This document shows positions 26,694 to 62,628 of a stretch of 64,000 nucleotides of DNA, piece after piece. Numbering within the stretch: position 1 is the first letter of the stretch; the number at the start of each line of letters is the position of its first letter. The notes beneath the pieces are model-generated. The model was not told where the DNA came from, ran no database searches, and was given only the letters and a program-made list of their open reading frames with translations. A program made the translations under genes and the position numbers. The stretch is from NCBI GenBank assembly GCA_026129405.1, contig JAHCID010000004.1, forward strand, positions 186,001 to 250,000. The letters are read 5' to 3'. This DNA is from a bacterium. Its GTDB lineage: Bacteria; Desulfobacterota; Binatia; DP-6.

Positions 26694-26865
26694 GACACCA
26701 GCGGTAGCTCGCTCCTCGTGACGAGAAGGTGAACTACTGCGCCGCACCAGATGCCGTCGTCTCGAAGTCCCTTCGCCAATGAGCCCGCGAGATGTTGCCC
26801 GCCTCGGCGCGTTTCAGCGCGACTCGGCGTTCGCGGCGGTAGCCATCCGCGCGAGCGGAAGTGGG

Positions 26866-28230: not shown

Positions 28231-28904
28231 GGCGGTTCGGCGGCGAGAACGAAGCCGGCGCCGCGCACGGTGTGCAAGAGCGGCGCTGCGCCATCGATGT
28301 CGAGCTTGCGACGCACTCGGCATATGTAGACATCGACGAGGTTGGACAACCCATCATAGTTGCGGTCCCAGCAGTCATCGAGGAGTTGGCTACGTGTGAC
28401 GAGCTCACCCGCATGGCGCGCGAGGTATTCGAGTATCGCGAACTCCTTCGCCGTCAAGGAGATCGCGCGCCCCGCACGGCGCACATTGAAACGCGCAGGA
28501 TCGACCTCGAGATCGCCGACGCGCAGTACCGGCGGCAGGGTGGCTGTGCCGCGCCGTAGGAGCGCGCGCACCCGCGCCACGACCTCGGCAAAGGCGAACG
28601 GCTTCGCCAAGTAGTCGTCCGCTCCGGCGTCTAGCCCGCCCACGCGGTCAGAGAGCCTGCCTCGCGCAGTGAGCACGAGGATGGGGAGCGCGCTGCCCCG
28701 CTGACGTAGGTCGCGCAGAAAGAGCAAGCCATCGCCATCCGGAAGCCCGAGGTCAAGGATGACGCAGTCGTAGGCGTGCTCGCGACATAGCTCGTCCGCC
28801 TCTTCCGCCCGTCCGGCCAGATCGACCGCATAGCCGCGGGCAACAAGCCCATCGCGCAGCGCGCGAGCAATTGCACGGTCGTCCTCGACCACCAGCAGTC
28901 GCAT
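28224..28904 (-). CDS. OmpR/PhoB-family response regulator
   Basis: A 226-residue regulator from ATG 28904. The receiver domain shows the acidic pocket VVEDD at 5-9 and phosphorylation site D51 (CVILDLGLPDGDG), then LTARG and LAKPF with the conserved lysine. A winged-helix DNA-binding domain follows (SLTAKEFAILEYLARHAGEL, VDVYICRVRRKLD). It is the first gene of the minus-strand operon, so it probably also controls itself. About 98 bp separate its start from the divergent GT39 gene at 29003, and that spacer is the natural place for its binding site. Confidence 0.92.
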   Translation of the reverse strand: MRLLVVEDDRAIARALRDGLVARGYAVDLAGRAEEADELCREHAYDCVILDLGLPDGDGLLFLRDLRQRGSALPILVLTARGRLSDRVGGLDAGADDYLAKPFAFAEVVARVRALLRRGTATLPPVLRVGDLEVDPARFNVRRAGRAISLTAKEFAILEYLARHAGELVTRSQLLDDCWDRNYDGLSNLVDVYICRVRRKLDIDGAAPLLHTVRGAGFVLAAEPPC

Positions 28905-28971
28905 CGCGCCGGAGGATAAGCCGCTCCATTGTGCCGCGCGAACGCCCTGAAGGTGTCCGGTCCGCACCCGA

Positions 28972-28987
28972 TTCATCCTGGCGTCAG
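28972..28987. promoter_or_regulatory. Possible response-regulator half-sites between divergent starts
   Basis: TTCAT at 28972-28976 and GTCAG at 28983-28987 start 11 bases apart, the spacing OmpR-family regulators use for tandem half-sites. They lie in the 98-bp region between the response regulator and the divergent GT39 gene. The match between the halves is poor (shared TCA), so this is only a weak suggestion. Confidence 0.22.
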
Positions 28988-29002
28988 ACGACGACGAGAA
29001 GA

Positions 29003-30679
29003 ATGAAGCAGTTCATGTCGCCCCGCCAGGTCGCCTTTGCGAGCGCGCTCGCGGCTGCGCTCGCGTTTGCCGTCGTGGCTACCGCACTCCCATTCTATAC
29101 TCGCGCCGAGCCGCGCGAGGCCAATGCCGCTCGCGCGATGGTGGCGGGGCGTGGCCTCGTGGTGCCGGAGCGCGATGGCGACCGACCGTCGAAGAAGCCA
29201 CCCCTCTACCACTGGCTAGCGGCCGCTGCGCTCGCCATCGGCGTCGAGCCACCAGAGCTCGCGGTACGCCTCCCAAGCGTGTTGCTCGCTGCGACGGCCG
29301 TCGGCGTCACTGCGGGGATCGGGGCTGCGCTCCACGGACCGTTGGCCGGGGCGCTCGCCGGGCTCGTTCTCGGGAGCAGCTTCGAATGGTTTCGCGCTGC
29401 GACGCAGGCGCGCGTCGATATGACGCTCACCGTCTTCCTATCGCTCGCCGCGATCGGGCTTTGGCTGGGCACTCGACGGAACCGCCCTGCGTGGTGCCGG
29501 CTCGGCGCACTCGCTGCGGGAGCGGCTACGCTGGCGAAGGGGCCAGTCGGTATCATTTTGCCGCTTGGCATCGTCGTCTTGGATGCATTCGTGCACGGCG
29601 AGCACCGGCGTCTTCGACGCCTCGTCGATCCGGTGGCTGCTGCCATGCTGCTTCTTCCGCCCCTGGCGTGGTATGTCGCCGCGGCGTTGCACAGCGGCGC
29701 CGGCGTGCTCCACACCCAGCTCGTCGACGAGAACGTCGCGCGTTTCCTCGGCATCGGAAATGTCGGGCACCGCCACGGGCTGCTCTACTATCCTCCTCTT
29801 CTTGCGGGCGGCCTACTTCCCTGGACCCTCGCCGTGATGGCTGGTGTGTGGGCGGCGATCCGGCGGCCGGGGCGGGTGGAGCGATTCTGCCTCGTCTGGG
29901 CCGCCGTCGTGCTCGCATTTTTCTCGGTAGCGGCCGGTAAACGGTCCGTGTATCTGCTCCCCGCGTTCCCGCCGATGGCGCTCCTTGGCGGCTTGGCGCT
30001 CGCGCGCTGGTGTCGGGCCCCAGTTTCGGAACGTGTGCGCTCGGGCGGTGCGGCGGCGGCCGTCTCACTTGTGTTTGCCGCCGTCGCCCTCGCGCTGCCG
30101 CCGGTGCAGGCGACACTCGTCGCGTGGGCACCGCACGTGGTGAGCAGCGATCGAGAAATGGTGGCGCCAGCGTTCGCAGTGCTAGCGCAGGCAGGCTCAC
30201 TGGTAGTCGGAGTCGCGGCGGGGATCGGTGGTGCGCTCCTCGTCGCCGTGCGGGCGCGAACGGCCACTGCTCGCGGAAGCGCGCTCGTCGTTTTTGGCAT
30301 CCTCCTGCCGCTTGCCATCACGCTCCTGGGCACACTTCCGCTCGCGCGCCTACTTGCGCCGCGAGAGTTCGCCGAGGCAGTCCGCCGCCGCGTCGGTCCA
30401 GATGCCGCTATGTGCGCGCTTGGCCCGGTGCCCACGAGCCTGCTCTGGTATCTAGACCGGCCGTTGCCGCCCTGCCGTCTGCAATGCGACCGGCCCGAAG
30501 GCATGGCGTGGGTGTTGCGCACGATGTCGTTCGATGCGCGCCACCGCGAGCCCTGTCTGACGCTCACGCTGCGTCACGATGGAACCGGGCTTGGCGACAG
30601 CATTCGCCTGGACCGAGTGATCGCGCGGACGGTTGGTGAAGCGGGTGGGTTGCGCGTCGTGGAAAAGGAAGCACCTTAA
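29003..30679 (+). CDS. Second ArnT/GT39-family membrane glycosyltransferase
   Basis: A 558-residue polytopic protein from ATG 29003 (GAGAAGA just upstream). The periplasmic loop reads TRAEPREANAARAMVAGRG, then GDRPSKKPPLYHW, so the ArnT-like pattern with KPPL is present, but the usual D-E pair is replaced by A-E, and catalysis may use a different acidic residue. Many hydrophobic segments follow; a short soluble part with several cysteines closes the chain. It is divergent from the response-regulator gene and probably shares control with the operon. It would act with the GT39/GT2 pair at the other end of the operon, on the same or another lipid-linked sugar. Confidence 0.82.
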   Translation: MKQFMSPRQVAFASALAAALAFAVVATALPFYTRAEPREANAARAMVAGRGLVVPERDGDRPSKKPPLYHWLAAAALAIGVEPPELAVRLPSVLLAATAVGVTAGIGAALHGPLAGALAGLVLGSSFEWFRAATQARVDMTLTVFLSLAAIGLWLGTRRNRPAWCRLGALAAGAATLAKGPVGIILPLGIVVLDAFVHGEHRRLRRLVDPVAAAMLLLPPLAWYVAAALHSGAGVLHTQLVDENVARFLGIGNVGHRHGLLYYPPLLAGGLLPWTLAVMAGVWAAIRRPGRVERFCLVWAAVVLAFFSVAAGKRSVYLLPAFPPMALLGGLALARWCRAPVSERVRSGGAAAAVSLVFAAVALALPPVQATLVAWAPHVVSSDREMVAPAFAVLAQAGSLVVGVAAGIGGALLVAVRARTATARGSALVVFGILLPLAITLLGTLPLARLLAPREFAEAVRRRVGPDAAMCALGPVPTSLLWYLDRPLPPCRLQCDRPEGMAWVLRTMSFDARHREPCLTLTLRHDGTGLGDSIRLDRVIARTVGEAGGLRVVEKEAP

Positions 30680-30789
30680 GCACTACCTCGAAGGCGCGCT
30701 GGTCTTACGACCAGGGCTCAGGATTGTCTCGTGCAGTCGGCGTTGCCTGCCAGACCGGTGATGGGTGTCGCGGATCGCTCGAGGAGCTA

Positions 30790-30949
30790 GTCCCGAGTCG
30801 GAAGTCCGTCAACAAATCTTGGGCGGTCTCACGCCGGCCGGCTGCGTTGCTCCTCCTCAGACATAGCGACGGCGATGCCTCGTCGTCGCGCGCTGCCGGG
30901 TGGCGCGCGATCCCGCCTGAGATGTGGCAACGGACTTCCGACTCGGGAC
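30790..30949. repeat. Dispersed inverted-repeat element, copy A (160 bp)
   Basis: The ends are perfect 20-bp inverted repeats: GTCCCGAGTCGGAAGTCCGT at 30790-30809 and its exact reverse complement at 30930-30949. The interior is clearly related to the copy at 50446-50602; for example CTCCTCCTCA and ATGCCTCGTCGTCGCG are shared word for word. No open frame or transposase is inside. It lies between the GT39 gene and the SRPBCC gene at the right border of the GC-poorer block. Confidence 0.85.
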
Positions 30950-31072
30950 ACGTTAAGCGAAGAAGCGGGATCGATGTCGACGTTAGCGGCCCCGGCTTGA
31001 TGAGCCGTTGTAACTTGCAGAATCGCGGGCGGGACGGCGCGTGCGCCGCCCGCGCGCGCGTCGTTTCGGCGG

Positions 31073-31087
31073 TGGCACGGAACCTGC
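31073..31087 (+). promoter_or_regulatory. Sigma-54 (-24/-12) promoter for the SRPBCC gene
   Basis: TGGCACG at 31073-31079, four bases, then CTGC at 31084-31087: the GG and GC cores are spaced exactly as RpoN promoters require (GG-N10-GC), with one departure from the TTGC consensus. Transcription would begin near 31099, leaving about 54 bases before the ATG. If real, expression needs an enhancer-binding activator. Confidence 0.6.
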
Positions 31088-31152
31088 GATCGCCTAGCAC
31101 CGATTTCGCGGACGGCGCCCTCGGGCGCCGCACGCAGAAGGAGGTGCGATCC

Positions 31153-31617
31153 ATGGCATCGCAGATCGAGAAGTCGATCGAGGTCGACGTCCCCGTGCGC
31201 ACGGCCTACGATCAGTGGACCCAGTTCGAGCAGTTTCCGAACTTCATGGAGGGCGTCACGGAGGTGCGTCAGATCGACGACCGCCGGCTCTTCTGGCGCG
31301 CCGACGTCGGCGGCAGGGAGAAGACCTGGGAGGCCGTCATCGACGAGCAGATCCCCGACGCGCGCATCGCCTGGCACGCGACCACCGGTGCCCGCAACGC
31401 CGGCGTGGTGACCTTCCACCGCCTCGACGACCGGCGCTGCAAGGTGATGCTCCAGATGGAGTACGACCCCGAGGGCTTCACCGAGAACGTCGGCGACTTT
31501 CTCGGCGTCGCCAGCGCCCGCATCAGCGGCGACCTCGGGCGCTTCAAGGAGTTCATCGAGGATCGCGGCACGCAAACGGGCGCCTGGCGCGGCTCCATCG
31601 GCCGCCCGCTGCATTGA
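31153..31617 (+). CDS. SRPBCC/START-like cyclase-dehydrase family protein
   Basis: A 154-residue protein with a textbook ribosome site, AAGGAGGTG at 31138-31146. It opens IEKSIEVDVPVRTAYDQWTQ and FEQFPNFMEGVTEVRQIDD, the standard start of the polyketide-cyclase/dehydrase (SRPBCC) fold, and ends with a helix ISGDLGRFKEFIEDRG. Such proteins form a deep hydrophobic cavity and bind lipids or other small ligands; many are stress-induced. No partner gene is adjacent. The strong ribosome site plus a -24/-12 promoter suggests high output on demand. Cytoplasmic, as there is no signal peptide. Confidence 0.87.
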   Translation: MASQIEKSIEVDVPVRTAYDQWTQFEQFPNFMEGVTEVRQIDDRRLFWRADVGGREKTWEAVIDEQIPDARIAWHATTGARNAGVVTFHRLDDRRCKVMLQMEYDPEGFTENVGDFLGVASARISGDLGRFKEFIEDRGTQTGAWRGSIGRPLH

Positions 31618-34404: not shown

Positions 34405-36507
34405 GTGCGACCCACGCCCGCGTCGTTGACGCGCCTTGCCGTCCCGTTGCTCGCGCTCGTCCTCGTGTCGGCGCACGCGGCGGAGATCTCGCCACAGACC
34501 GTCGGCTCGCTCGGCGTGCGCTGGACCCGCGCGCTCGGGCCGGTGACCGGACCGCTCGTGGTCGAGGGCGACACGCTCTACGCGGCGGGCTGGAGCGGCG
34601 GTCGCTTCTACGCGCTCGATCTCGTCACCGGCGCCAACAAGTGGTCGGCGACGGTGCCCGGGCTGCTGTTCGGCGGAACCCTCGTCCTGCCGGACACCGT
34701 GTGCGCCGGTGCCGGGACGTTCGTCACCTGCGTCGACAAGGCCACGGGCGCCGAGCGCTGGACGCGCAACGTCGGCAATCCCGACTTCCCCGACGCCATC
34801 TGGTCGGCGCCCAACGCGGCCAACGGCCGCCTGTTCGTCAGCATCGCCTCGATCTCCGACGACCCGTGTACGCGCGGCCGGCTCATCGCGCTCGACCTCG
34901 CGACCGGCGATCTGCTGTGGACCCACCAGACGGTGCCGGACAAGATCTGCACCACCGACACCGGCACCGAGTGCGACGACGACGGCGACTGCCCGTCGGG
35001 CGGCAGCTGCGTCATCGGGCGCGGCGCGGGCGTCACCGCGACGGTCGCCGTCGATCCGACGGGCGCCTTCGTCTACATGAACACCGTCGGCTGCTTCTCG
35101 TTCCCGTCGATCGGCGACTCGGAGACGATGTTCAAGCTGAACGCGGCGACCGGCGAGACCATCTGGAAGAACCGGGTCACGCCGCCGGAGCAGTTCGGCT
35201 ACTGCGCCAACGACGGCTCGGTCGACTGCAACCTCGACGCCGACTGCGCCGGCGTCGGCGGCACCTGCACGAACCCGAAGGCCGGCTACCACGACTTCGG
35301 CTTCCTCAACGGTCCGCATCGTCTCGTGCTGCCCGGCGCCACGCTCATCCTCTCGGCGGCGAAGAGCGGCACGCTCTACGCGTTCGACGAGCAGACGGGC
35401 ACGATCGTATGGGAGAACGCCGTCCAGCCGACGCCCATCTCGCCCGGCACCGCCGGCTTCGGCCTGTTCAACGGCGCCCTCGCCGTGTCGGGCGACCGCG
35501 TCTACGCCGCGCTGAACTCGCTCATCCCGTCGCGCGTGTGCGCCAACGACCATCGCGTCGGCTGCACCTCGGACGCGCAGTGCCCCGGCGGCATCTGCCT
35601 GCCGGCGCCCGAGCACCTCCAGGCCTTCGACGCCAGCAACGCCGGCGCCACGCTGTGGACGCACGAGATCGGCTCGAGCTGGTCGTCGGCCTCGGTCGCG
35701 AACGGCGTCGTCTTCGCGGGTACGAACACGAAGGCCGCCGACGACTCGTCGGAGTTCTTCGCGGTCGACGCGGCGAGCGGCACGCGCCTCGCCACCTATC
35801 GCGTGCCGGCACCGTCCATCGGCCGCGCGACCGTCGCGGGCGACACCGTCTTCGTGCCCTACGGGACGCTCAGCACGCCGGGCACCGGCGGCGTGGTGGC
35901 GCTGTCGCTGTGCGGCAACGGCGTCCTCGACGCCGGCGAGGCCTGCGACTTCGCGGCAGCGGACGCCGCCGACTGCTGCACGCTCGCGTGCACGCCGGCC
36001 GCCGCCGGCACCGCCTGCGGCACCGACGACGGCAACGTCTGCACCGACGCCGCCTGCGACGGCGCCGGCCTCTGCGTCACGACGAGCAACACCGCGTTCT
36101 GCGACGACGGCGACGCCTGCACCAGCGGCGACGTGTGCGCCGCCGGCGCCTGTGCCGGCGCCGTCGGCACGCGCGCCGACCTCGACTGCGCGCTCGCCGG
36201 CCTCACCGCCGCCAGCTGCGACGGCGCGCCGCTGCCGAAGGGCCTGGCGAAGGCGCTCGCCAAGCGCACGCGCGGCGCGACCAAGCAGCTGAACAAGGCT
36301 ACGGCGCTCGCGGCCAAGGGCGCCGCGAGCGCCAAGATCGAGAAGCGCCGCCAGGCGGCCGCGCGTCAGCTCGACGGCGTCGCTGCGCTGACGGCCAAGG
36401 CCGTGCGCGCGCGGAACGCGAAGAAGCGCATCGCCGAGTCCTGCAAGGCGACGCTCGACGCGATCGCCGCGCGCAGCCGCGCCGCGATCGCGGGCTTCGG
36501 CTTCTAG
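34405..36507 (+). CDS. Secreted PQQ-type beta-propeller protein with Cys-rich inserts
   Basis: A 700-residue protein from GTG 34405 with a signal peptide. Propeller blades appear as repeated A-L-D-x-x-T-G-x-x-x-W patterns (LYAAGWSGGRFYALDLVTG, LIALDLATGDLLWTH, LYAFDEQTGTIVWEN). Three inserts have the pattern C-x7-C-x5-C-x4 to 6-C (for example CANDHRVGCTSDAQCPGGIC), as in the neighbouring cytochrome. Near the end comes a CGNGVLDAGEACD Cys repeat of the DUF4215/myxobacterial type, then CDDGDACTSGDVCAAGAC and a helical basic tail. It may be a dehydrogenase-like or scaffold propeller; catalytic PQQ residues were not identified. A dispersed repeat begins at its stop codon. Confidence 0.82.
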   Translation: MRPTPASLTRLAVPLLALVLVSAHAAEISPQTVGSLGVRWTRALGPVTGPLVVEGDTLYAAGWSGGRFYALDLVTGANKWSATVPGLLFGGTLVLPDTVCAGAGTFVTCVDKATGAERWTRNVGNPDFPDAIWSAPNAANGRLFVSIASISDDPCTRGRLIALDLATGDLLWTHQTVPDKICTTDTGTECDDDGDCPSGGSCVIGRGAGVTATVAVDPTGAFVYMNTVGCFSFPSIGDSETMFKLNAATGETIWKNRVTPPEQFGYCANDGSVDCNLDADCAGVGGTCTNPKAGYHDFGFLNGPHRLVLPGATLILSAAKSGTLYAFDEQTGTIVWENAVQPTPISPGTAGFGLFNGALAVSGDRVYAALNSLIPSRVCANDHRVGCTSDAQCPGGICLPAPEHLQAFDASNAGATLWTHEIGSSWSSASVANGVVFAGTNTKAADDSSEFFAVDAASGTRLATYRVPAPSIGRATVAGDTVFVPYGTLSTPGTGGVVALSLCGNGVLDAGEACDFAAADAADCCTLACTPAAAGTACGTDDGNVCTDAACDGAGLCVTTSNTAFCDDGDACTSGDVCAAGACAGAVGTRADLDCALAGLTAASCDGAPLPKGLAKALAKRTRGATKQLNKATALAAKGAASAKIEKRRQAAARQLDGVAALTAKAVRARNAKKRIAESCKATLDAIAARSRAAIAGFGF

Positions 36508-36554
36508 TGTTCCGAGTCCGAGATTTGGTGACGAACTTCGGACTCGGGACACTA
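36505..36554. repeat. Dispersed inverted-repeat element, copy C (50-bp mini form)
   Basis: It starts with TAGTGTTCCGAGTCCGAG, whose first three bases are the stop codon of the propeller gene, and ends with CTTCGGACTCGGGACACTA, nearly the reverse complement of the start. The reversed sequence matches the left end of the copy at 50446 for about 28 bases. The interior of the long copies is missing. It fills most of the gap between two convergent genes. Confidence 0.8.
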
Positions 36555-36567
36555 GGGTCTCGGGATC

Positions 36568-40820: not shown

Positions 40821-41456
40821 ATGGACTTTCGCGAGGTGGTGTCGAGCACGCCGGCGTGCCGCTTCTACCGGCCGGACCCGGTCCCCGACGACGTGCTGCG
40901 CCGCGTGCTCGACGCCGGCCGCCATGCGCCCACCGGCGGCAACCGCCAGGGCGTGCGCTGGATCGCGGTGCGCGATGCGCACAAGCGCCGGCAGCTCGCC
41001 GCGCTCTACCTGCCGCTCTGGGAGCAGTACGCCGGGCGCGCCACGACCAGGCCGGGCGCGCCGCTCCCCACGCTGCTCGCCAACGCCGACCACTTCGCGC
41101 GCCACCTCGCCGACGTGCCCGTGCTGCTCGTCGTCTGCGCGCTGCTCGGCGACCTGCTCGCGACCGACCGGCATCTCGGGCGTCTCTCGATCGTCGGCGG
41201 CGCGTCGGTCTATCCGAGCGTGCAGAACGTCTTGCTGGGGGCGCGCAACGAGGGCCTCGGCACGGCGCTGACGACGCTCCTCTGCGCCGTCGAGCCCGAG
41301 GTGAAGGCGCTGCTCGGCATCCCGGAGGAGGGCGTCGCGACCGCGGCGCTGGTCGCGCTCGGCTGGCCGTCGCAGCCGTTCCCGAAGCGCGTCGCGCGCC
41401 GCCCGCTCGCCGCCTCCTGCTTCGCCGACGCCTGGGGCACGCCGCTCTTCCCGTGA
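40821..41456 (+). CDS. Nitroreductase-family FMN protein
   Basis: A 211-residue protein from ATG 40821 with GAGGAG upstream. It opens with MDFREVVSSTPACRFYRPDP and VPDDVLRRVLDAGRHAPTGGN, which is the standard nitroreductase start, including the FMN-phosphate contact (R-x-Y/F) and A-P-T-G-G-N in place of A-P-S-x-x-N. Later, SVQNVLLGARNEGLGTAL matches the dimer/FMN region. Physiological substrate unknown: nitro compounds, quinones or flavins are possible. The stop codon overlaps the GTG of the next gene (GTGA), so both are co-translated and lie in an aspS-led transcript. Confidence 0.87.
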   Translation: MDFREVVSSTPACRFYRPDPVPDDVLRRVLDAGRHAPTGGNRQGVRWIAVRDAHKRRQLAALYLPLWEQYAGRATTRPGAPLPTLLANADHFARHLADVPVLLVVCALLGDLLATDRHLGRLSIVGGASVYPSVQNVLLGARNEGLGTALTTLLCAVEPEVKALLGIPEEGVATAALVALGWPSQPFPKRVARRPLAASCFADAWGTPLFP

Positions 41457-42436
41457 CCGCCGACCGGATCACCGCCGCGGCGGACGACGTCGAGCGGACC
41501 ATGCGCCGGCTCGGCGCGTGGACGGAGCCGCCGCCGCTGCGCCCCTTCGCGGCGCCCTTCGGCATGGACGCGATGCCGTTCGAGCACTGGATCCAGCTCG
41601 TGCTGGTACCGCGCCTGCGCGAGATCGCGCGGACCGGCGCGCCGCTGCCGCCGTCCAGCAACCTCGCCGGGCACGCGGTGCGGGAGTTCGACGGGCGCGA
41701 CGACATGGGCCCGCTCGTCGACGTCCTGCGCCGGGTGGACGGGCTGCCGGGATCGGCGCGCGCGGGCGCGGCGGCTCCGGGGCCGGCCGCCGCGCCCGCG
41801 CAGGGAATGGCCCTGTTCATGCGCGCCCGGGCGGCGGGGGGGCTCGCGGCCGTGGTCGGCGTGCTGATCGCGATCGCGGCGAGCGACTGGGCGTCGACCG
41901 CGCTGCGCGGCTGGTTCCTGCCGACGGTGACGGCGTCGTTCGAGGGGACCATCCCGCCGAGCGACGCCCACGTCCCGCTGCGTGCCACGTTCTCCGCCGG
42001 CGTCCGCGACGACGGCCGCCTGGTGCCGGGCGACGGCCTTCTCTCCCTCCACCGCCGCGGCATCCCCGTGCCCGGCGACTTCGCGCACGTCGCCGAGCCG
42101 CTGCCGTTCGCCGCCGCGGCGCCGCCCGCTGCGGAGACGATCCGCGCCTGGCTCGTGCGCGTCGGCGTCGATCCGGAGGCGCAGGGCCTCGGGCCGGCGG
42201 CGCAGGAGATGGTCGTGATCCTCGCGGTCGCCGCCGCCGAGCCGACGCGCGCGGGCCTGGACGAGGTGGCGTCGCGGCTGCCGCTGGGGACGCCGGAGCC
42301 GCAGCTCTTCGACCTCGAGACGCGCACGCCCGGCTGGGTCGATACCGCCGCCGGCATCGGCGCGGTGGTGCTCGTGTGCGTGCCGATCCTGCTGCTCGTG
42401 GTGCGCCGCGTCCGGCGGCGGCAGCGGGGACACTAG
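41453..42436 (+). CDS. YqcC-like (DUF446) domain fused to a two-helix membrane protein
   Basis: A 327-residue protein starting at GTG 41453, overlapping the nitroreductase stop. Residues 1-100 match the small YqcC family, for example PFGMDAMPFEHWIQLVLVPRL and TGAPLPPSSNLAGHAVREFD. After a Pro/Ala linker a membrane helix (about 123-145) leads to an extracytoplasmic beta-rich region of about 150 residues. A second helix near residues 296-320 (VVLVCVPILLLVVRRVRRR) ends the protein. YqcC is normally a free protein of about 110 residues of unclear role, so this fusion is unusual. Its stop codon TAG overlaps the stop of the convergent MFS gene by two bases. Confidence 0.8.
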   Translation: MTADRITAAADDVERTMRRLGAWTEPPPLRPFAAPFGMDAMPFEHWIQLVLVPRLREIARTGAPLPPSSNLAGHAVREFDGRDDMGPLVDVLRRVDGLPGSARAGAAAPGPAAAPAQGMALFMRARAAGGLAAVVGVLIAIAASDWASTALRGWFLPTVTASFEGTIPPSDAHVPLRATFSAGVRDDGRLVPGDGLLSLHRRGIPVPGDFAHVAEPLPFAAAAPPAAETIRAWLVRVGVDPEAQGLGPAAQEMVVILAVAAAEPTRAGLDEVASRLPLGTPEPQLFDLETRTPGWVDTAAGIGAVVLVCVPILLLVVRRVRRRQRGH

Positions 42437-43836
42437 GCCGGCGGCGCGACCGCGGCCGACAGCGGCGCCAGCGCCGGCGCGCGGCGCAGCAGCACGAGCA
42501 CCGGGAGCAGCACCGACGCCGCCAGCTCGACCCAGAACAGCTCGAGGAACGCCAGCTCCGTCGCGAAGGCGCCGGGATGCCCGCCCGCGAGCAGCTGCTC
42601 GGTGCGTACCTGGAGGAAGGCGTCGAGCGCCGCGACGCCGAGCGCGTAGCCGAGCTGCTGGCCGAGCACGAAGAGCCCCGCCGCCGCGGGCACCTGCGAC
42701 GGCGACAGCGAGCGGAACGCCAGCGTCGCCAGCACCGCGGACACCACCCCGAAGCCGACGCTGCTCACGGCTGCGGGCCAGATCGCGCCGAGCGGCGAGA
42801 GCCCCGGCGCGTAGTGCGTGAAGCCGTACTTGCCGACCAGCAGCAGCCCGAGCCCGGCGGCGAACACCGCGAGCGGCCGCGTGACGCCGAGCATCCGCCC
42901 GGCGGCGGCGAGCCCGAGCAGCAGCGCCGCGCCCGCGCACGCGCCGCGCATGCCGAGGAACCCACTGTCGAAGCCGACGACGCTGCCGAGCATCGCCGTC
43001 TGGAAGAAGGCGGTCGAGAACGCGCCGATGCCGAAGCAGAGGACGACCATGGTCGCGAGGTCGTGGTTCGCGAGCGGCGCGAGGTCGACGATCGGCCGCG
43101 GCGTCCGGCGGGCGTGGCGCAGGAAGGCGCCGAGTCCGACGGCGGCGGCGAGCGGCAGGAGGAAGAGGGCCGGCGCGTGGTGCCAGTCGACGTCGTCGCC
43201 GATGGTGAGGAAGAGGTTCAGCGCGAGGATGCCGCCGCCGAAGGCCGCGAGCCCGAACCAGTCGACGGGGACGGCGCGCGACGGCTCGGCGGGCACGGCG
43301 CGCGCGACCAGCGGCAGCGCCACCAGCGCGAGGGCCGGGGCGAGCGCGAAGATCGCCGGCCAGCCGACGTGCAGGCAGAGCCAGCCGCCCGCCAGCGCCC
43401 CGAGCAGCGTTCCCGCGGCGCTGCCGCCGCCCCACAGCGCCATGCCGACGGCGCGATGCCGCTCGGGGAAGCGCGCGACGACGAGCGCCTGCGTCGCGGG
43501 AAGGAGCGGCGCGACGCACAGCCCCTGCACGAACGCGAGCCCGAGCAGCGGTCCGAGGCTCGGCGTCGCGGCGGCGGCGGCCGACGCGACGCACGTCCCC
43601 GCGATGCCGCCGAGCATGACCCGGCGCGCGCCGAAGCGCTCCAGCAGGAACGGCGTCAGCGGCGTCGCGCACACGGTGGCGACGAGGAACGCGTCGACCA
43701 GCCAGAGCACGCGCGCCGGGCTGGTGCCGAGCGCGGCGCCGAGCGCGGGCAGCGCGATGCCGAGCGACGCGAGACCGACGCCGGCCAGCGCGTTCACGAG
43801 GACGATCAGGACGCCGGCGCGGCCCACCGGTTCCAC
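42433..43836 (-). CDS. MFS exporter, 14-helix DHA2 (EmrB/QacA-like) type
   Basis: A 467-residue membrane protein. GTG at 43836 or 43827 is the most likely start because TM1 (VLIVLVNALAGVGLASLG) follows directly. The proton-antiporter features are visible: motif A-like LLERFGARRVMLGG after TM2, and motif C-like WGGGSAAGTLLGALAGGWL in TM5. I count about 14 hydrophobic segments, as in drug/H+ antiporters of the DHA2 group. It would export a small hydrophobic or amphipathic compound. It overlaps the 3' end of the hexahaem cytochrome gene by 20-30 bp, which suggests coupled translation of an unlikely pair. Confidence 0.83.
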   Translation of the reverse strand: MEPVGRAGVLIVLVNALAGVGLASLGIALPALGAALGTSPARVLWLVDAFLVATVCATPLTPFLLERFGARRVMLGGIAGTCVASAAAAATPSLGPLLGLAFVQGLCVAPLLPATQALVVARFPERHRAVGMALWGGGSAAGTLLGALAGGWLCLHVGWPAIFALAPALALVALPLVARAVPAEPSRAVPVDWFGLAAFGGGILALNLFLTIGDDVDWHHAPALFLLPLAAAVGLGAFLRHARRTPRPIVDLAPLANHDLATMVVLCFGIGAFSTAFFQTAMLGSVVGFDSGFLGMRGACAGAALLLGLAAAGRMLGVTRPLAVFAAGLGLLLVGKYGFTHYAPGLSPLGAIWPAAVSSVGFGVVSAVLATLAFRSLSPSQVPAAAGLFVLGQQLGYALGVAALDAFLQVRTEQLLAGGHPGAFATELAFLELFWVELAASVLLPVLVLLRRAPALAPLSAAVAPPA

Positions 43837-47989: not shown

Positions 47990-49209
47990 TCGCACCGCAG
48001 GACCTCACCCCCGACGAGCTGGAGACGATCCGCCATCTCGTCCCCGATCCCGAGCCGGTGCTCGGCGAGCCCGCCGGTAGCGCGGACGAGCCGGCGCCCG
48101 CCGCGCCGCTGCGGGTGTGCGAGACGCTGCTCGACGGCAACGAGCGCCGCTACGTCCTCGAGTGCTTCGACACCAACATGATCTCGTCGGCGGGGCCGTT
48201 CGTCCGCCGCTTCGAGGAGGCGTTCGCCGAGGCGGTGGGATGCCGCCACGGCGTCGCCTGCTCGAGCGGCACGGCGGCGCTGCACCTCGCGCTCGGCGCC
48301 GCCGGCGTCGGCCCCGGCGACGAGGTGCTGATGCCGGCGTTCACCATGATCGCCACCGCCAACGCCGCGGCGCTGCTCGGCGCCGTCCCGGTCCTCGTCG
48401 ACGCCGAGCCCGACACCTGGAACCTCGACGCCACCCGGCTCGCCGCCAAGGTGACGCCGCGCACGCGCGCCATCGTGCCCGTCCACATCTACGGCCATCC
48501 GTGCGACATGGACGCCGTCCACGCCGTCGCCCGGCGCTATCGCCTCGTCGTCGTCGAGGACGCCGCCGAGGCGCACGGCGCGATGTATCGCCGCCGCCCG
48601 GCGGGCAGCCTCGGCGACGTCGCCGCGTTCTCGTTCTACGGCAACAAGGTGCTGACGACGGGCGAGGGCGGCATGCTGACGACCAACGACGCCGCGGTCG
48701 CCGCGCGTGCCCGCGAGCTGCGCGCGCTCTGCTTCTCCACCGAGCGTCACTTCTGGCACCGCTCCGTCGGCTTCAACTACCGCATGACGAACCTCCAGGC
48801 CGCCGTCGGCCTCGCGCAGACGGAGCGCCTCGCCGATCTCGTCGCCCGCCGCCGGTCGAACCGCGACCGCTACCTGGCGGCGCTGGCCGACGTGCCGGGG
48901 CTCGGGCTGCCCGTCGAGCGGCCCGAGGTGCGCAACGTCTTCTGGATGTTCGGGATCACGGTCGACGCCGCGCGCTTCGGCTGCACGCGCGACGAGCTGC
49001 GCCGGCGGCTCGCCGCGCGCGGCATCGAGACGCGGACCTTCTTCGTGCCGCTGCACGTGCAGCCCGCCTACTTCCGCGCCCATCGCGGCGAGTCGTATCC
49101 GGTGGCCGAGCGCCTCGGACGGACGGGGCTCTATCTGCCGTCGGGGCCGTCGCTCTCGGACGCCGACGTCGCCTACGTCGCGCGCGAGATCCGCCGCGCG
49201 CGCAGATGA
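47986..49209 (+). CDS. DegT/DnrJ/EryC1-family PLP aminotransferase
   Basis: A 407-residue protein from ATG 47986, with GGAGG four bases upstream, overlapping the PP-loop gene as ATGA. Motifs: NMISSAGPFVRRFEEAFAEA near the start, GVACSSGTAALHLAL, VVVEDAAEAHGA with the PLP-binding Asp, and FYGNKVLTTGEGGML with the Schiff-base lysine K221. Close in style to perosamine-synthase-like enzymes that install an amino group on a nucleotide sugar, although non-sugar substrates are known in the family. About 45 N-terminal residues precede the usual family start. Its stop overlaps the GT4 start. Confidence 0.88.
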   Translation: MIAPQDLTPDELETIRHLVPDPEPVLGEPAGSADEPAPAAPLRVCETLLDGNERRYVLECFDTNMISSAGPFVRRFEEAFAEAVGCRHGVACSSGTAALHLALGAAGVGPGDEVLMPAFTMIATANAAALLGAVPVLVDAEPDTWNLDATRLAAKVTPRTRAIVPVHIYGHPCDMDAVHAVARRYRLVVVEDAAEAHGAMYRRRPAGSLGDVAAFSFYGNKVLTTGEGGMLTTNDAAVAARARELRALCFSTERHFWHRSVGFNYRMTNLQAAVGLAQTERLADLVARRRSNRDRYLAALADVPGLGLPVERPEVRNVFWMFGITVDAARFGCTRDELRRRLAARGIETRTFFVPLHVQPAYFRAHRGESYPVAERLGRTGLYLPSGPSLSDADVAYVAREIRRARR

Positions 49210-50444
49210 GGCCGCTGCTCGTCTTCGTCGCCGGCAAGGATCCGCTCGAGGAGCCGGGCGGCGGCCACTCGGTCTACGTGCGGGCCTGCGCGCGCGCCGC
49301 CGTGCGCGCCGGCTACGCCCCGCAGATCCTGTGCGTGGGCGCGACGGCGCGCGTGCGCGAGACCGACTTCGGCACGATCCGCCGCCTGCGCTCGCCGTTC
49401 CGGCCGCTGCGTCAGCTGATGATCCCCGGTCACGCGCCGATCCTCGCCCGCGGCCTGGTCACGCTGGCGGCGGCACGGCCGGGGCCGGTGCTGGCGCACG
49501 GCTTCGGCGTGTGGGGCGCGGCGGCGGTCGACGGCTGCGCGCGCCTGCGCCGGCGGGGGCGCACGGCGGTGGCGGTGATCGGCTCGTATACGACCTACCG
49601 CGTCGAGTCGGACTCGCTGGTGCGCGGCCTGCGCGACGCGCCCGTCCGCGTCGCGCTGGGCTATCGCGCCCAGGCGGCCTGGGCGCGGGCGGTGGTGCAT
49701 CGCTACGAGCGCGCGGCGTACCGCGGCGCGGCCCGCGTGTTCGTGAACTACGAGTCGGTGCGCCGTCTCGTCCTCGCCGAGCACGGCCCCACGGTACGCG
49801 TCGAGCGCGTCGCGTACGGGCCGGAGTCGGCCTTCCTGCCGCCGCCGGAGCCCGGCGCCGTGCCGGCCGAGATCGCGGTCCTGCGTCCCGCCGGCGCGCC
49901 GCTCGTCGTCAGCGTCGCGCGCAGCCACTCGCGCAAGGGCGTCGACGTGCTCGTCGATGCGCTCGCCCTCGCCCGCGACCGCGGCACGCCGCTGCGCGCA
50001 TGTCTCATCGGCGAGGGCCCGCTGCTCGCGGACAACCGCCGGCGGGCGCGCGCCCTCGGCCTCGACGGCGCGGTGGTGCTGGCCGGACGGGTGGCGGAGG
50101 TCGAGCCCTACCTGCGGCGGGCCGACGTCTTCGCGCTCGCGTCGCGCGAGGAGCAGAGCGGGGCGCTGGCGCTGCTCGAGGCGCTGAGGGCGGGCCTGCC
50201 GATCGCAGCGTCGGCGGTCGACGGCATTCCGGAGGACGTGCGCGACGGCGAGAGCGCGCTGCTCGTGCCGCCCGGCGACGCCCCGGCGCTGGCGTCGGCG
50301 CTGGTCCGGCTCGCCGCCGATGCGGCCCTGCGCCGCCGTCTCGCCGCCGGCGCCGCGGCGGTGTATGCGACGCGCTTCGCCGCCGAGCCCTTCGCCGCCT
50401 CGCTCGGCGCGGCGTACGCGGCGCTCGGCTTCCCGCCTTCCTAA
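49206..50444 (+). CDS. GT4-family glycosyltransferase
   Basis: A 412-residue GT-B enzyme from ATG 49206, overlapping the aminotransferase stop as ATGA. The C-terminal nucleotide-sugar domain shows VSVARSHSRKGVDVLVDAL, IGEGPLL and SREEQSGALALLEALRAGLP, the usual acidic pair and glycine motifs of GT4. The N-terminal half has GGGHSVYVRACARAA, fitting the acceptor domain. It would transfer the sugar, possibly the one aminated by the preceding enzyme, to an unknown acceptor. Last gene of the cassette. A 157-bp dispersed repeat begins 2 bp after its stop. Confidence 0.86.
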   Translation: MRPLLVFVAGKDPLEEPGGGHSVYVRACARAAVRAGYAPQILCVGATARVRETDFGTIRRLRSPFRPLRQLMIPGHAPILARGLVTLAAARPGPVLAHGFGVWGAAAVDGCARLRRRGRTAVAVIGSYTTYRVESDSLVRGLRDAPVRVALGYRAQAAWARAVVHRYERAAYRGAARVFVNYESVRRLVLAEHGPTVRVERVAYGPESAFLPPPEPGAVPAEIAVLRPAGAPLVVSVARSHSRKGVDVLVDALALARDRGTPLRACLIGEGPLLADNRRRARALGLDGAVVLAGRVAEVEPYLRRADVFALASREEQSGALALLEALRAGLPIAASAVDGIPEDVRDGESALLVPPGDAPALASALVRLAADAALRRRLAAGAAAVYATRFAAEPFAASLGAAYAALGFPPS

Positions 50445-50445
50445 C

Positions 50446-50602
50446 GTCCCGAGTCCGAAGCTCGTCACCGAAGCTCGGGCCGTCTCACGCCGCCCGGCTG
50501 CATTGCGCCTCCTCACCATGGCGACGGCCATGCCTCGTCGTCGCGCCGCGCCGGGCGGTGCGATCCCATCCGAGCTTCGGCAACGAGCTTCGGACGCGGG
50601 AC
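50446..50602. repeat. Dispersed inverted-repeat element, copy B (157 bp)
   Basis: Outer repeats: GTCCCGAGTCCGAAGCTCGT at 50446-50465 and its complement with one mismatch at 50583-50602. Inside are a second pair, CCGAAGCTCGG at 50468-50478 and CCGAGCTTCGG at 50570-50580, and a third, CCGCCCGGC at 50490-50498 and GCCGGGCGG at 50550-50558. The whole can fold into one long hairpin. It fills exactly the space between the GT4 stop (50442-50444) and the MMPL stop (50604-50606). It is clearly homologous to the copy at 30790. Confidence 0.88.
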
Positions 50603-50603
50603 A

Positions 50604-52856
50604 CTAGCGTCGCGCGCGCCAGTGCTCCCAGACGGTCACCAGCGCCGGCAGCAGGAGCAGGTTCGCGAGCAGCGACAGGGTCATGGCGGCGGCGCCGAGC
50701 AGGCCGAGCGTCGCCACCGGGACGAAGCTGGCGGCGAGCAGCACGGCGAAGCCGGCCGCCAGCACGACGTCCGAGACGATCATCGGCGCGCCGACGGCGT
50801 CGAGCGTGGCCTCGCGCGTGGCGGGACCGAGCGTGCCGCGCAGGCGCCGGTAGCGGTCGAGGTACTGGACGGTGTCGTCGACGGCGTTGCCGAGCGCGGC
50901 GGCGCCGGTCGTGACCGTGGCGGCGTTGAGCGGGATCCCGAGCCAGCCGAGGAGGCCGTAGATCAGGACGATCGGCAGCAGGTTCGGCAGGAGGGCGAGG
51001 AGCCCGAGCCAGGGCGAGCGCAGTGCGACGGCGAGCAGCACGGTCATCGCGAGCGACGCGAGCAGCAGCTCGCGCACCAGCCCGGCCGTGAACTCGTAGG
51101 CGGTGGCGACGCGCAGCAGCCCGGTGCCGGTGAGCCGTGCCTCGAGCGGCGCCGGCACCAGCCGGCGCAGATGCTCCTCGACGCGGGCCACGAAGGCCTC
51201 GACCTCCATCGTGCCGGCGTGGGCCATGCGCAGGAGGACGTGGTGGCGGCCGCTCTCCTGGTGCACCCACGGCGCCAGCGTCGCCGGGTCGCCGAAGTCG
51301 TACAGCAGCGCGTACTGCGCGATCAGATCGGCGCGGCCCGGCAGCGGCGCGCCGGGGCCTTCGAACGCCGTCGCGGTGAGCCGCAGGAGATCGGCTGCGC
51401 TGGTGACCGTCTGCACGCGCGGGTCGGCGCGCAGGGCCTCGACGACCGCGTCCTCGGCCCGCAGCAGCGCGGGATCCCACGGGCCCTCCGGGCTGCGGAA
51501 GACCAGGCTGAACGGCAGGACGCCGCCGAGCTGGCCGTCGATGAGATGCGTCGAGCGGGCGACGGGCGACTCGTCCGGGAACCAGTCCCAGGGGCTCTGG
51601 TCGACGTACACCCAGCGCAGGCCGACGGCGCCGAGCCCGACGACGAGCGCAGTGGTCGCGAGGACGGCTGCGGCGTGGCGGTCGGTCAGGCGATGGACGG
51701 CCGCGAGGAGCGGCCGCATGCTGGCGTGCGAGCGTTCTCCGGGCGCGCGCCGCGCGACCAGCGTCAGCACGGCGGGCACGACGGTGAGCGAGAGGGCCGC
51801 GGCGATGCCGCTCGCGGTCACGGCGAGGAGGCCGAGGTCGCGGAGCACGTCGATGTGGCTCCCGCACATCGGCAGGAAGCCGAGCGCGGTGGCCGCGCCG
51901 CACCACATCACCGTCGTCCCCACCTCGCGCAGGGCCGCTTCGACGCCGGCGCTGCCGCGCATGCCGAGGTCCTGCTGGCGCCCGAACTCCGAGAGGACGC
52001 GCACGCAGTAGCTCGTGCCGACCGCGAGCACGAGCGGCACGAGCGTCGAGGTGACGACCGAGATCGACACCCCGGCCGCGCCGGCGATGCCGAGCGTCCA
52101 CGCCAGCGAGAGCACGACGGTGACGAGCGGCAGCACCACGGCGGCGACGCCGCGATAGGTGAGGCCGAGGAACGCCGCCATGGTGAGGAAGGCGAGCGAG
52201 CCGAGCACGCGGAGGTCGCGCCGCGTGAGGGCGTCGATCTCGACCTGGCCGTACGGCGCGCCGCCGAGGAGCACCTCGCTGCCGGGCGCAAGGTCGGGCG
52301 TCAGATCGGCGATCAGCTGCTCGACGGCGGCGACGAGGCGGCCCTTGAAGCGCGGGTCTTCCGGTCGCGGCCGCACGAACGCCAGGACCGCGGCGACACG
52401 GCGGTCGGGCGTGAGCAGTGTCTGCGCGACGATGGGGTGCGCGAGCACCGCCGGCAGCGGCGCGCCGTCGCTGGGCGTGCCGTCGCTCGCGAACAGCCGC
52501 TCGACGACGACGTCGTCGCCCGACGGCCACGGCCAGCGCAGCGTCGCGAGGCTGGCCACGCGCTCGACGCCGGGGGCCTTCGCGAGCGCGGTGTCGAGCC
52601 GCAGGAGGTCGCGGACGGCGGCCGGCGTCGTCACGTCGGGTGCGCGCAGCAGGACGAAGAGGATCTCGTCGCCGCCGAACGCGGCGCGCACGTCGAGCAG
52701 GAAGTCGGCGTCGGGCGAGTCCTGCACGAGCAGGCGCTCGCTCGAGTTGTCGAAGCCGAGGCGTCGCAGGCCGATCCCGGCCACCCCGGTGAGCAGCGCC
52801 GCGACGAGCAGCACGAGCCACGGGTGGGACACGATCGCCCGGGCGCTCCGGTCCAC
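50604..52856 (-). CDS. MMPL/HAE3-family RND transporter
   Basis: A 750-residue membrane protein from GTG 52856. It has the two-fold MMPL layout: one N-terminal helix, a periplasmic domain, five helices, then a second periplasmic domain and five helices. Typical motifs are VVLPLVTVVLSLAWTLGIAG and GTSYCVRVLSEF in the first half, and PNLLPIVLIYGLLGWLGIPL followed by ALGNAVDDTVQYLDRYRR in the second. Relatives move lipids or hopanoids out of the inner membrane (HpnN, MmpL). No adaptor or outer-membrane factor is adjacent. It is convergent to the GT4 gene through the dispersed repeat. Confidence 0.87.
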   Translation of the reverse strand: MDRSARAIVSHPWLVLLVAALLTGVAGIGLRRLGFDNSSERLLVQDSPDADFLLDVRAAFGGDEILFVLLRAPDVTTPAAVRDLLRLDTALAKAPGVERVASLATLRWPWPSGDDVVVERLFASDGTPSDGAPLPAVLAHPIVAQTLLTPDRRVAAVLAFVRPRPEDPRFKGRLVAAVEQLIADLTPDLAPGSEVLLGGAPYGQVEIDALTRRDLRVLGSLAFLTMAAFLGLTYRGVAAVVLPLVTVVLSLAWTLGIAGAAGVSISVVTSTLVPLVLAVGTSYCVRVLSEFGRQQDLGMRGSAGVEAALREVGTTVMWCGAATALGFLPMCGSHIDVLRDLGLLAVTASGIAAALSLTVVPAVLTLVARRAPGERSHASMRPLLAAVHRLTDRHAAAVLATTALVVGLGAVGLRWVYVDQSPWDWFPDESPVARSTHLIDGQLGGVLPFSLVFRSPEGPWDPALLRAEDAVVEALRADPRVQTVTSAADLLRLTATAFEGPGAPLPGRADLIAQYALLYDFGDPATLAPWVHQESGRHHVLLRMAHAGTMEVEAFVARVEEHLRRLVPAPLEARLTGTGLLRVATAYEFTAGLVRELLLASLAMTVLLAVALRSPWLGLLALLPNLLPIVLIYGLLGWLGIPLNAATVTTGAAALGNAVDDTVQYLDRYRRLRGTLGPATREATLDAVGAPMIVSDVVLAAGFAVLLAASFVPVATLGLLGAAAMTLSLLANLLLLPALVTVWEHWRARR

Positions 52857-60771: not shown

Positions 60772-62628
60772 TCACTCGAGGGTGCAGGACGGCGGCGCGA
60801 GCGCGTCACCGTCCCAGACCGGCGCCGCGTAGAGCGCGACCTGCCCACCCGGCTCGTCGGCGTCGCGCGCAGCGGGACACGCGACCGCCGCCGTCGCCTC
60901 GCCCTCGACGAGAACGTTCGCCAGCGCCTGCCGGTACGCGCAGTCGACGCCCGTGCCGAGCACGGCGCTCGTCTCGCAGGCGCGCACCACCTGCGGCGCT
61001 GCGCCCGCCGGCAGCGTGCAGCGCAACGTTGCCGGCTGGCCCGCCGTGCAGGCGATGCTCGGCCCGGCGGTGAAGCCGCAGTCGCGCCGCGGGCCGAGCT
61101 GGCCGCGCGTGCAGGCGCCCGTCACCTGGGCGCCGACCCGCGGCAGCGTCGCCGGTACCTCGGCGTAGTTGTTCGCCTGCCAGGCCGGATCGAAGTCGCA
61201 CGCGAAGCGGTCGACGGGTTTGCCGTCGGCGGTGACGAACTCGGTCGGCACGAAGGCCGGATTGCCGTGCTCGTCGAGGATGGGGCGGCCCTCGCAGAGG
61301 AACTGGTCGGGGTTGGCGTCGAACGAGAGCATGGCGGTCTGTGGGCCGGCGCTGGTGTCGACGTCGGTGACGTCGATCCACTGGCACTCGATGCCGGCGA
61401 TGTAGTCGTCGCCCCAGCCGGCCGAGATGCCCTGGTAGTTGCAGTCGGCGTAGGGCGAGACGAGCGACGTGCTCTCGTTGTTGGAGTAGCGCTGCGTCGT
61501 CTGCAGGCAGAAGGCGCGCTTGTCGCCGGTCGTCCCTGCGAAGAGGAAGTCGCCGTAGTGCGAGAAGTGGTAGTGCCCGTGGCAGGCGCTGAACTCGAAG
61601 ATGTTGTGCTGCTCGTTGGCCGGGTTCAGCCCCTCGAGGAAGAAGTCGACGGCGCCGATGTGCACGGCCGCGCCGCCGGTGTTGCGCACGCTGGCGGTGA
61701 ACTTGAGGAGCCGCCGCCAGCCCGTGCCCTTCACGCAGCCCTCGGCGACGGCGCACGAGTCGGCGGGGATGTAGCGGTACTCGAGGCGGTGATCGAAGAG
61801 GCCCTCGCGCACGACGGCGAGGTCGCCGGTGGGCGCGGTCACCTCGCCGACGCGGTAGCGGTCGGCGACCGCCGGGTCCCAGCGCAGGCGCGTGAAGCGC
61901 AGGGCCACCGGCACGCGGCCGACGTGGCGCTTCAGCGCCTTGCGGCACGACTCCTTCGGCAGCGGCGGCGTCAGGTGGCAGGAGAGGGCGCCCGGCTTCT
62001 CGACCGTGCACTGGTCGTCGAAGAACGCGCGCGCGTTCTCCTCGTCGACGCTGTTCGGCGGAAACTCGGCCTCGTCCATGCAGGCGAAGCCGGTGCGCTG
62101 GAGCAGCAGCTCGGGATCGGCCGGCAGCTGGAACTTCTCGTGCCACGAGCCGCCCGCGCGGCGCAGCTTCGGTTCGGACAGCGCCGGCGACGCCGGATCG
62201 CTCAGCAGCACCGTTTCGAGGCGATACGGCGCGAGGACCATGTCGTGCCCCTGGAGGCGGGCGCGCTTCGGCGGCTCGGTGGTCACCGTCCAGGCCTCGG
62301 CGGGCGGCAGCGGCAGCTGCCGACGGCCGGTCCGCGCCGGGTAGTAGAAGGAGCGGTAGACGAGCCGATACGTCGTCGTCTCGAGCTGCATCCGTGCCCG
62401 CGCCTCCCAGAACGCCGGCGGCGCGGCCAGCAGCGCCGCGGCGACGCGGTCGCGCATCGCCGGCGGGATCTCGTCGAGCAGCACGCCGACCCGGGCGCGC
62501 GTCGTGATGCGCACGAGCGCGCCCGGATCGGCGGCCGCCCGCCCTGCCCAGAGCGCGACCGCGACGGCCAACACCACCCCGGCCCGGCATGCGCCGGGCC
62601 GCTCCCGCCTGTACGACGCGCCACCCAT
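60772..62628 (-). CDS. Secreted lysyl-oxidase-like copper amine oxidase
   Basis: A 618-residue exported protein from ATG 62628 with a hydrophobic signal ending near GRAAADP. The lysyl oxidase copper motif is ACHGHYHFSHYGDF, with H350, H352 and H354. Residues K370 (GDKRAFC) and Y409 (WGDDYIAGIECQWIDVTDV) fall at the positions that form the lysine-tyrosylquinone cofactor in animal enzymes, and C-Q-W-I-D-x-T-D is conserved. The ADC-NYQGISAG segment matches too. A Cys-rich C-terminal part follows. Bacterial lysyl oxidases are rare and little studied. It should oxidise lysine side chains of extracellular proteins. Confidence 0.85.
   Translation of the reverse strand: MGGASYRRERPGACRAGVVLAVAVALWAGRAAADPGALVRITTRARVGVLLDEIPPAMRDRVAAALLAAPPAFWEARARMQLETTTYRLVYRSFYYPARTGRRQLPLPPAEAWTVTTEPPKRARLQGHDMVLAPYRLETVLLSDPASPALSEPKLRRAGGSWHEKFQLPADPELLLQRTGFACMDEAEFPPNSVDEENARAFFDDQCTVEKPGALSCHLTPPLPKESCRKALKRHVGRVPVALRFTRLRWDPAVADRYRVGEVTAPTGDLAVVREGLFDHRLEYRYIPADSCAVAEGCVKGTGWRRLLKFTASVRNTGGAAVHIGAVDFFLEGLNPANEQHNIFEFSACHGHYHFSHYGDFLFAGTTGDKRAFCLQTTQRYSNNESTSLVSPYADCNYQGISAGWGDDYIAGIECQWIDVTDVDTSAGPQTAMLSFDANPDQFLCEGRPILDEHGNPAFVPTEFVTADGKPVDRFACDFDPAWQANNYAEVPATLPRVGAQVTGACTRGQLGPRRDCGFTAGPSIACTAGQPATLRCTLPAGAAPQVVRACETSAVLGTGVDCAYRQALANVLVEGEATAAVACPAARDADEPGGQVALYAAPVWDGDALAPPSCTLE

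Follow-up and report, generated by a model that had tools for sequence, protein, structure and literature searches.

What kind of sequence can fill, to the base, the gap that separates the stop codons of a convergent gene pair, and how could it have come to lie there? The question is raised by a locus in a window of 64,000 nucleotides (assembly GCA_026129405.1, contig JAHCID010000004.1, positions 186,001 to 250,000) from a bacterium of the Binatia, in which the genes of a glycosyltransferase family 4 protein (GT4) and of an MMPL/RND transporter face each other across a hairpin-forming sequence.

The element and its two stop codons

The features of the locus are as follows (window coordinates):

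49206-50444, + strand: glycosyltransferase family 4 gene, whose 3' end is the left edge of the element
50442-50443: left TA of the presumed target duplication, with which the GT4 stop codon begins (TAA 50442-50444, TAG in the ancestral state), as judged from the comparison of copies and the IS630 mechanism
50444-50604: highly likely IS630-type MITE, 161 bp, with the ends (G)TGTCCCGAG...CGGGACAC; the left terminal GT is now AC
50486-50561, - strand: conserved core, including an inner hairpin (R1 covariance model: 65.8 bits, E 5.8e-13)
50604-52856, - strand: MMPL/RND transporter gene, whose 3' end is the right edge of the element
50605-50606: right TA of the presumed target duplication, which together with base 50604 forms the MMPL stop codon TAG (- strand, 50604-50606)

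Gene calling relied on a custom codon model, for which the window itself served as training data, and the GT4 and MMPL assignments are backed by Pfam and NCBIfam. Both stop codons consist of TA and the terminal G of the element, the left one having since mutated to TAA, and the flanking G at 50607 completes a CTAG on the right side. The element is a palindrome with inverted-repeat arms of 58 nt (50441-50498 and 50550-50607), which are 79% complementary and contain nested perfect blocks of 10-13 bp. Folding of the RNA, a check proposed in the initial annotation, gave structures far more stable than those of shuffled sequences on both strands (z = -9.8 on the + strand and -10.8 on the - strand, with 0 of 200 shuffles as stable).

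The initial annotation had described a hairpin-forming element without a transposase, which exactly fills a 157-bp gap and contains three nested inverted repeats of 20, 11 and 9 bp. The arms, the fold and the stop coordinates agree with the hairpin and with the exact fill, and the element has no coding capacity. The length of the gap needs correction, as the space from stop to stop is 159 bp (50445-50603), and the inverted repeat is real while its division into three segments is approximate.

Copies in the window and in the host genome

The following related sequences and sites lie elsewhere in the window:

about 30787-30952: diverged full-length copy, 80% identity, with a core match at 30830-30906 (- strand, 58.6 bits)
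36504-36555: core-deleted 50-bp derivative with both ends kept
42433-42436: unoccupied CTAG of the presumed target type, forming the overlapping stop codons common to the convergent genes 41453-42436 (+ strand) and 42433-43827 (- strand)

The first two correspond to the copy of about 160 bp at 30790 and the 50-bp derivative at 36505 that had been noticed before. The left TAG of the derivative (36505-36507) is the stop codon of the gene 34447-36507, and the convergent gene beside it stops 16 bp from its right end. Confident gene calls are sparse, and codon usage is atypical, in the part of the window (24284-31153) that contains the diverged copy.

With the element and its end sequence as queries, 23 distinct places were found in the host genome (5.63 Mb, 15 contigs). 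These comprise eight long copies, six of which are essentially complete (~162 bp), several copies shortened by internal deletion to 37-89 bp in which both ends are still present, and single ends. The full-length copies read CTAG-TGTCCCGAGTCCGAAG...CTTCGGACTCGGGACA-CTAG. At 18 of the 23 places, the neighbouring gene stops at the TAG (once TAA) of at least one end, and at five this is true of both ends; one or two of these coincidences depend on low-scoring gene calls (L003 right, L052 right). The setting could be assigned for 22 copies: 15 lie between convergent genes, seven between tandem genes and none between divergent genes. Compared with the genome background of 57 convergent pairs among 359 adjacencies, this bias is significant (p = 6e-8), also when the reference is the fraction of gene 3' ends lying opposite a second 3' end (p = 5e-4). 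The position relative to convergent genes, which the initial annotation had proposed to tabulate, is thus truly biased, and the copies are neither few nor scattered in coding sequence.

Both a MITE and a REP-like unit had been suggested. The dispersed copies, the symmetric ends, the TA duplication within CTAG, the lack of coding capacity and the IS630-like terminal repeats speak for the former. REP/BIME elements, moved by a REP-associated tyrosine (RAYT) transposase, are likewise palindromic, intergenic and dispersed, but they differ in size, ends and mobilising enzyme: a REP measures 20-40 nt and has a conserved 5' tetranucleotide, whereas the unit described here is about 161 bp long, is flanked by TA and has ends that match IS630 elements. 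On account of the size, the TA duplication and the IS630 ends, the REP/RAYT reading was rejected, and we give it practically no chance.

Target site and proposed mode of insertion

In a 400-kb sample of the genome, CTAG is depleted 13-fold (75 found against 988 expected). Twenty-one of the 75 sites (28%) serve as stop codons, in two cases for both genes of a convergent pair; 12 lie inside genes and 42 are intergenic. The coincidence of the copies with stop codons (18 of 23) is clearly higher than that of the background CTAGs (Fisher p = 2e-5). As this excess is larger than a preference for CTAG alone predicts, selection against other insertions must be added. Most copies have the flanks C-TA...TA-G, and the base preceding the end TA is nearly always C in the elements of the relatives; the flanks GTA...TAC of the copy L028 fit a 2-bp duplication of TA and not a 4-bp one. 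The preference of IS630 for the TA in CTAG goes back to Tenzen and Ohtsubo (1991), as referenced in PMC2170065, and the duplication of TA by an IS630-family transposase has been shown in vitro for ISY100 (PMC2170065).

We consider it highly likely that the GT4/MMPL feature is a MITE belonging to those members of the IS630 (Tc1/mariner-like) family that are specific for CTAG, and that it arose by insertion, rebuilding of stop codons and selection. An IS630 transposase, presumably acting in trans, would excise the element of ~160 bp and join it to the TA of a CTAG, with duplication of this TA. With G as the first and C as the last base of the element, the product would be C-TA-[G...C]-TA-G, in which a TAG stop codon is rebuilt for genes entering from either side, and a gene ending at CTAG would lose nothing. 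Where a CTAG already served as stop codon, for one gene or, by overlap, for both genes of a convergent pair, neither protein would be altered; the target between the GT4 and MMPL genes was probably an overlapping stop pair of this kind. Insertions within genes or promoters would be purged by selection. The survivors would sit exactly between convergent stop codons because CTAG is rare in this genome and often located at gene ends, and because the harmful insertions are removed.

Elements in related genomes and the empty hisF site

The same ends were found in 23 of 98 relatives. Among the flanks with a clear coding signal, the stop was in the TAG frame in 23 of 34 (by-eye count, score > 0.1). 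In the relative G036, one copy lies exactly at the end of hisF (named from its C-terminal sequence), which reads CTC-TAG directly followed by the element, while hisF in three genomes of the same genus stops at the same codon position, there a TGA, and carries no element. As the position of the stop is unchanged in these element-free orthologues, hisF of G036 is not truncated. The orthologous empty site supports the proposed seamless insertion at gene ends, and, because the empty sites carry TGA, the change from TGA to TAG must have preceded the insertion in that lineage.

The same observations bear on the possibility that insertions occurred at random near the 3' ends of genes, which then came to end at the TAG built into the element. 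Each end of the element does offer TAG in one of three frames. This truncation is nevertheless very unlikely in view of the 18 of 23 copies with a stop codon exactly at an end, the use of the TAG frame by 23 of the 34 coding flanks of the relatives instead of about one third, the end codon shared by the hisF orthologues without the element, and the distant MMPL homologues, which align up to residues 739-744 of 750.

IS630 elements as candidate mobilisers

In genomes of the same taxonomic class, genes of IS630-family transposases were found inside elements with like ends of the GTGTCCYG type, namely L194, L203, L204 (one end) and L107 (one end). The element L194 has 1147 bp between the outer TAs, encodes a transposase of 374 aa and has GTGTCCYG at both ends (CTAG followed by TGTCCCG). 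The host genome itself contains one IS630 element, L201, of 1133 bp, whose ends are of the sister type GTGCACCGCCGTCGA. This is the sole DDE_3 match of the genome, in which no IS630 element with precisely the end type of the MITE was found. The transposases of L201, L194 and L203 were assigned to IS630 by NCBIfam. In L194, L201 and L204 the transposase's own stop codon is a TAG at the element boundary, which agrees with the statement, in the title of Fournier et al. (1993) as referenced in PMC6471742, that IS870 requires CTAG to form the stop codon of its ORF.

No convincing R1 core match was present in L194, L201, L203 or L204. IS630 elements with the core inside were not seen; in L197 (780-2066) the core belongs to a separate MITE that abuts an IS630 element, the two being chained end to end at a shared CTAG. 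In L336, chained in the same way, a copy abuts a palindrome whose ends resemble the Lysobacterales type. The near-complete genome G051 has seven identically scoring DDE_3 matches (L187), with the ends TTATTGAGTCTCGCAGAATATAGTG, which are unrelated to the CTAG type.

Distribution of the conserved core

A core of ~50 nt is located at the tip of elements of ~160 bp that have several unrelated terminal repeats and occur in about ten phyla. When elements were picked in the relatives solely on the basis of their ends, almost all measured 163-166 bp including the flanking TA, and the central motif is present in nearly all full-length ones. The exact-motif scan of one genome per species yielded 89 stretches, labelled as Nitrospirae, Gallionellales and other Proteobacteria, Binatia, 'Deltaproteobacteria', Gemmatimonadetes, Acidobacteria, Myxococcota, Omnitrophica, Planctomycetota, Fibrobacter and Eisenbacteria; most of these records are metagenome-assembled, and single taxon labels may be wrong. 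The end types of the core-bearing elements are GTGTCCYG, GTGCACCGYCG, CAGCCCGTTGA, GTGCAGAGATCC, YCCGCATTTCTC, AAACCDCAGTTG, TTAGGCCTCTGG and C-TNA-G followed by AGTYTGTGAAT. Most of the 58 core elements with recognisable ends are 162-168 bp long, and in 27 an end coincides exactly with a stop codon. The orientation of the core relative to the gene ending at the element is balanced in these 27 (16 versus 11). Seven of them are of the C-TNA-G type and lie at TGA (L206, L214, L216, L266, L280, L275 and L285).

R1 matches occur in 16 of 58 relatives. There are 34 in G036, about 17 of which have identical scores, which suggests a recent spread. The identically scoring elements of G036 (L335-L344) have the ends GTGCACCGCCG, several being located at contig edges, and this core-bearing element, of the sister type, was probably active recently. 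In G045 and G025, core-like elements with the ends CTAGCAGCCCGTTGARAAACAGG are repeated several times (L345-L347, L353-L354).

The core was not found in viral contigs (exact pattern) or in plasmids (query: one representative element). Neither the core of the window nor that of eight loci in other hosts matched Rfam 15; the ASdes match in L223, the sole one above its gathering score, lies outside the core. Among the papers listed in a literature search with core sequence strings, all were unrelated. We attribute the weak R1 match at 61440-61506 of the window (E 0.005) to chance; it falls within a called gene. Coding sequence was rejected as an explanation of the core, as the spacer between its two conserved motifs varies from 15 to 22 nt and no frame is kept.

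Structure and possible function of the core

In the non-redundant set selected by ends (n = 16), the core columns mostly have a pairwise identity of 0.76-1.0, while the arms and the inner loop mostly have 0.3-0.7. In 35 diverse core sequences, the 21 named pairs are 90.6% paired, and 18 of them show changes on both sides. The covariation score of the core is 0.643, compared with 0.186 for shuffled and at most 0.148 for slid controls; in most of the 35 rows the motif letters are conserved by construction, owing to the exact-motif scan, which placed no such constraint on the stems. The core is flanked by strongly covarying stems and holds a conserved asymmetric purine-rich internal loop. Its inner stem has 52 double versus 4 single-sided changes and few G-U pairs, and so few single-sided changes, few for an RNA, hint at pairing at the DNA level.

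Taken together, conservation and covariation suggest that the core is needed for the spread or the tolerance of the elements. A further reading, plausible rather than probable, is that the tip forms a functional module independent of the terminal repeats, acting most likely at the DNA level, and that a widely conserved factor recognising it would make the elements transmissible or tolerable at gene ends. The core could instead be a passive remnant of one old MITE, ancestral to all these elements, whose ends were swapped between transposases. The near-constant length (162-168 bp with the flanking TA) and the common layout across end types would fit such a descent, but a core without function would hardly keep 0.76-1.0 identity next to arms and a loop at about 0.3-0.7, or covary in the stems on either side of it (0.643 versus 0.186 shuffled), and we regard this explanation as rather unlikely. 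Covarying helices beside a conserved asymmetric purine-rich internal loop would also be expected of a structured RNA, such as an sRNA or a 3'-UTR element with a CCUCCUC stretch, which resembles an anti-Shine-Dalgarno sequence. Against this stand the missing Rfam match, the unbiased orientation relative to the gene ending at the element, and the scarcity of G-U pairs and single-sided changes, which DNA-level pairing fits at least as well; an RNA core is unlikely.

The initial annotation had further proposed that the element was adopted as a bidirectional transcription end. As a bidirectional terminator or 3'-end stabiliser, it would be retained between convergent genes because it blocks antisense transcription by read-through. 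The hairpin is indeed very stable on both strands, the copies are enriched between convergent genes, and the short derivatives without the core retain both ends and can still form a hairpin. IS630 elements have also been reported as over-represented between convergent genes (PMC9208149). However, no intrinsic (rho-independent) terminator, i.e., a GC-rich hairpin with a T-run behind it, was detected at 49500-51500, the choice of target together with selection against harm already explains the placement, and the orientation is balanced in the 27 core elements from many phyla with an end at a stop codon. A terminator function is possible, though on the improbable side; the sequence gives it no support and the placement alone is insufficient.

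Comparison with known elements and significance

The MITE shares with IS630 of Shigella sonnei and IS870 of Agrobacterium vitis the TA of a CTAG target, the TA duplication and the terminal repeats, and the completion of the transposase stop codon at the element boundary, seen in L194, L201 and L204, is a further likeness to IS870, as far as the title cited above goes. Unlike these insertion sequences, it has no transposase and consists, in its 161 bp, mostly of the hairpin arms and the core. RUP of Streptococcus pneumoniae (107 bp, mobilised by IS630-Spn1; PMC2229807) is likewise an IS630-derived, dispersed, intergenic MITE with a TA target, but it is shorter and was described without another signature of structure or function, and no placement at stop codons is reported in PMC2229807. 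MITEPsy1 of Pseudomonas syringae (100 bp, CTAG or YTAA target; PMC3189936) also prefers CTAG and has been shown to transpose; it differs in its 4-bp duplication, in its ends, which are those of ISPsy2 (IS5 family), and in that two of its six copies interrupt loci.

The GT4/MMPL feature is therefore ordinary in kind, as an IS630 MITE. It illustrates a simple route to a nearly harmless mobile element, whose target is rare within genes and common at stop codons and which rebuilds the stop codon on both sides. What is not ordinary is the conserved core common to elements with unrelated ends. This core is found neither in Rfam nor in the literature searched, and its recurrence in similar elements whose ends differ, in about ten phyla, suggests an undescribed function that they share. 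A conserved, structured core combined with unrelated ends in different phyla is not predicted by the view of MITEs as internally deleted insertion sequences. With a covariance model and many copies at hand, the core provides a concrete object for testing whether bacterial MITEs carry functional internal structures.
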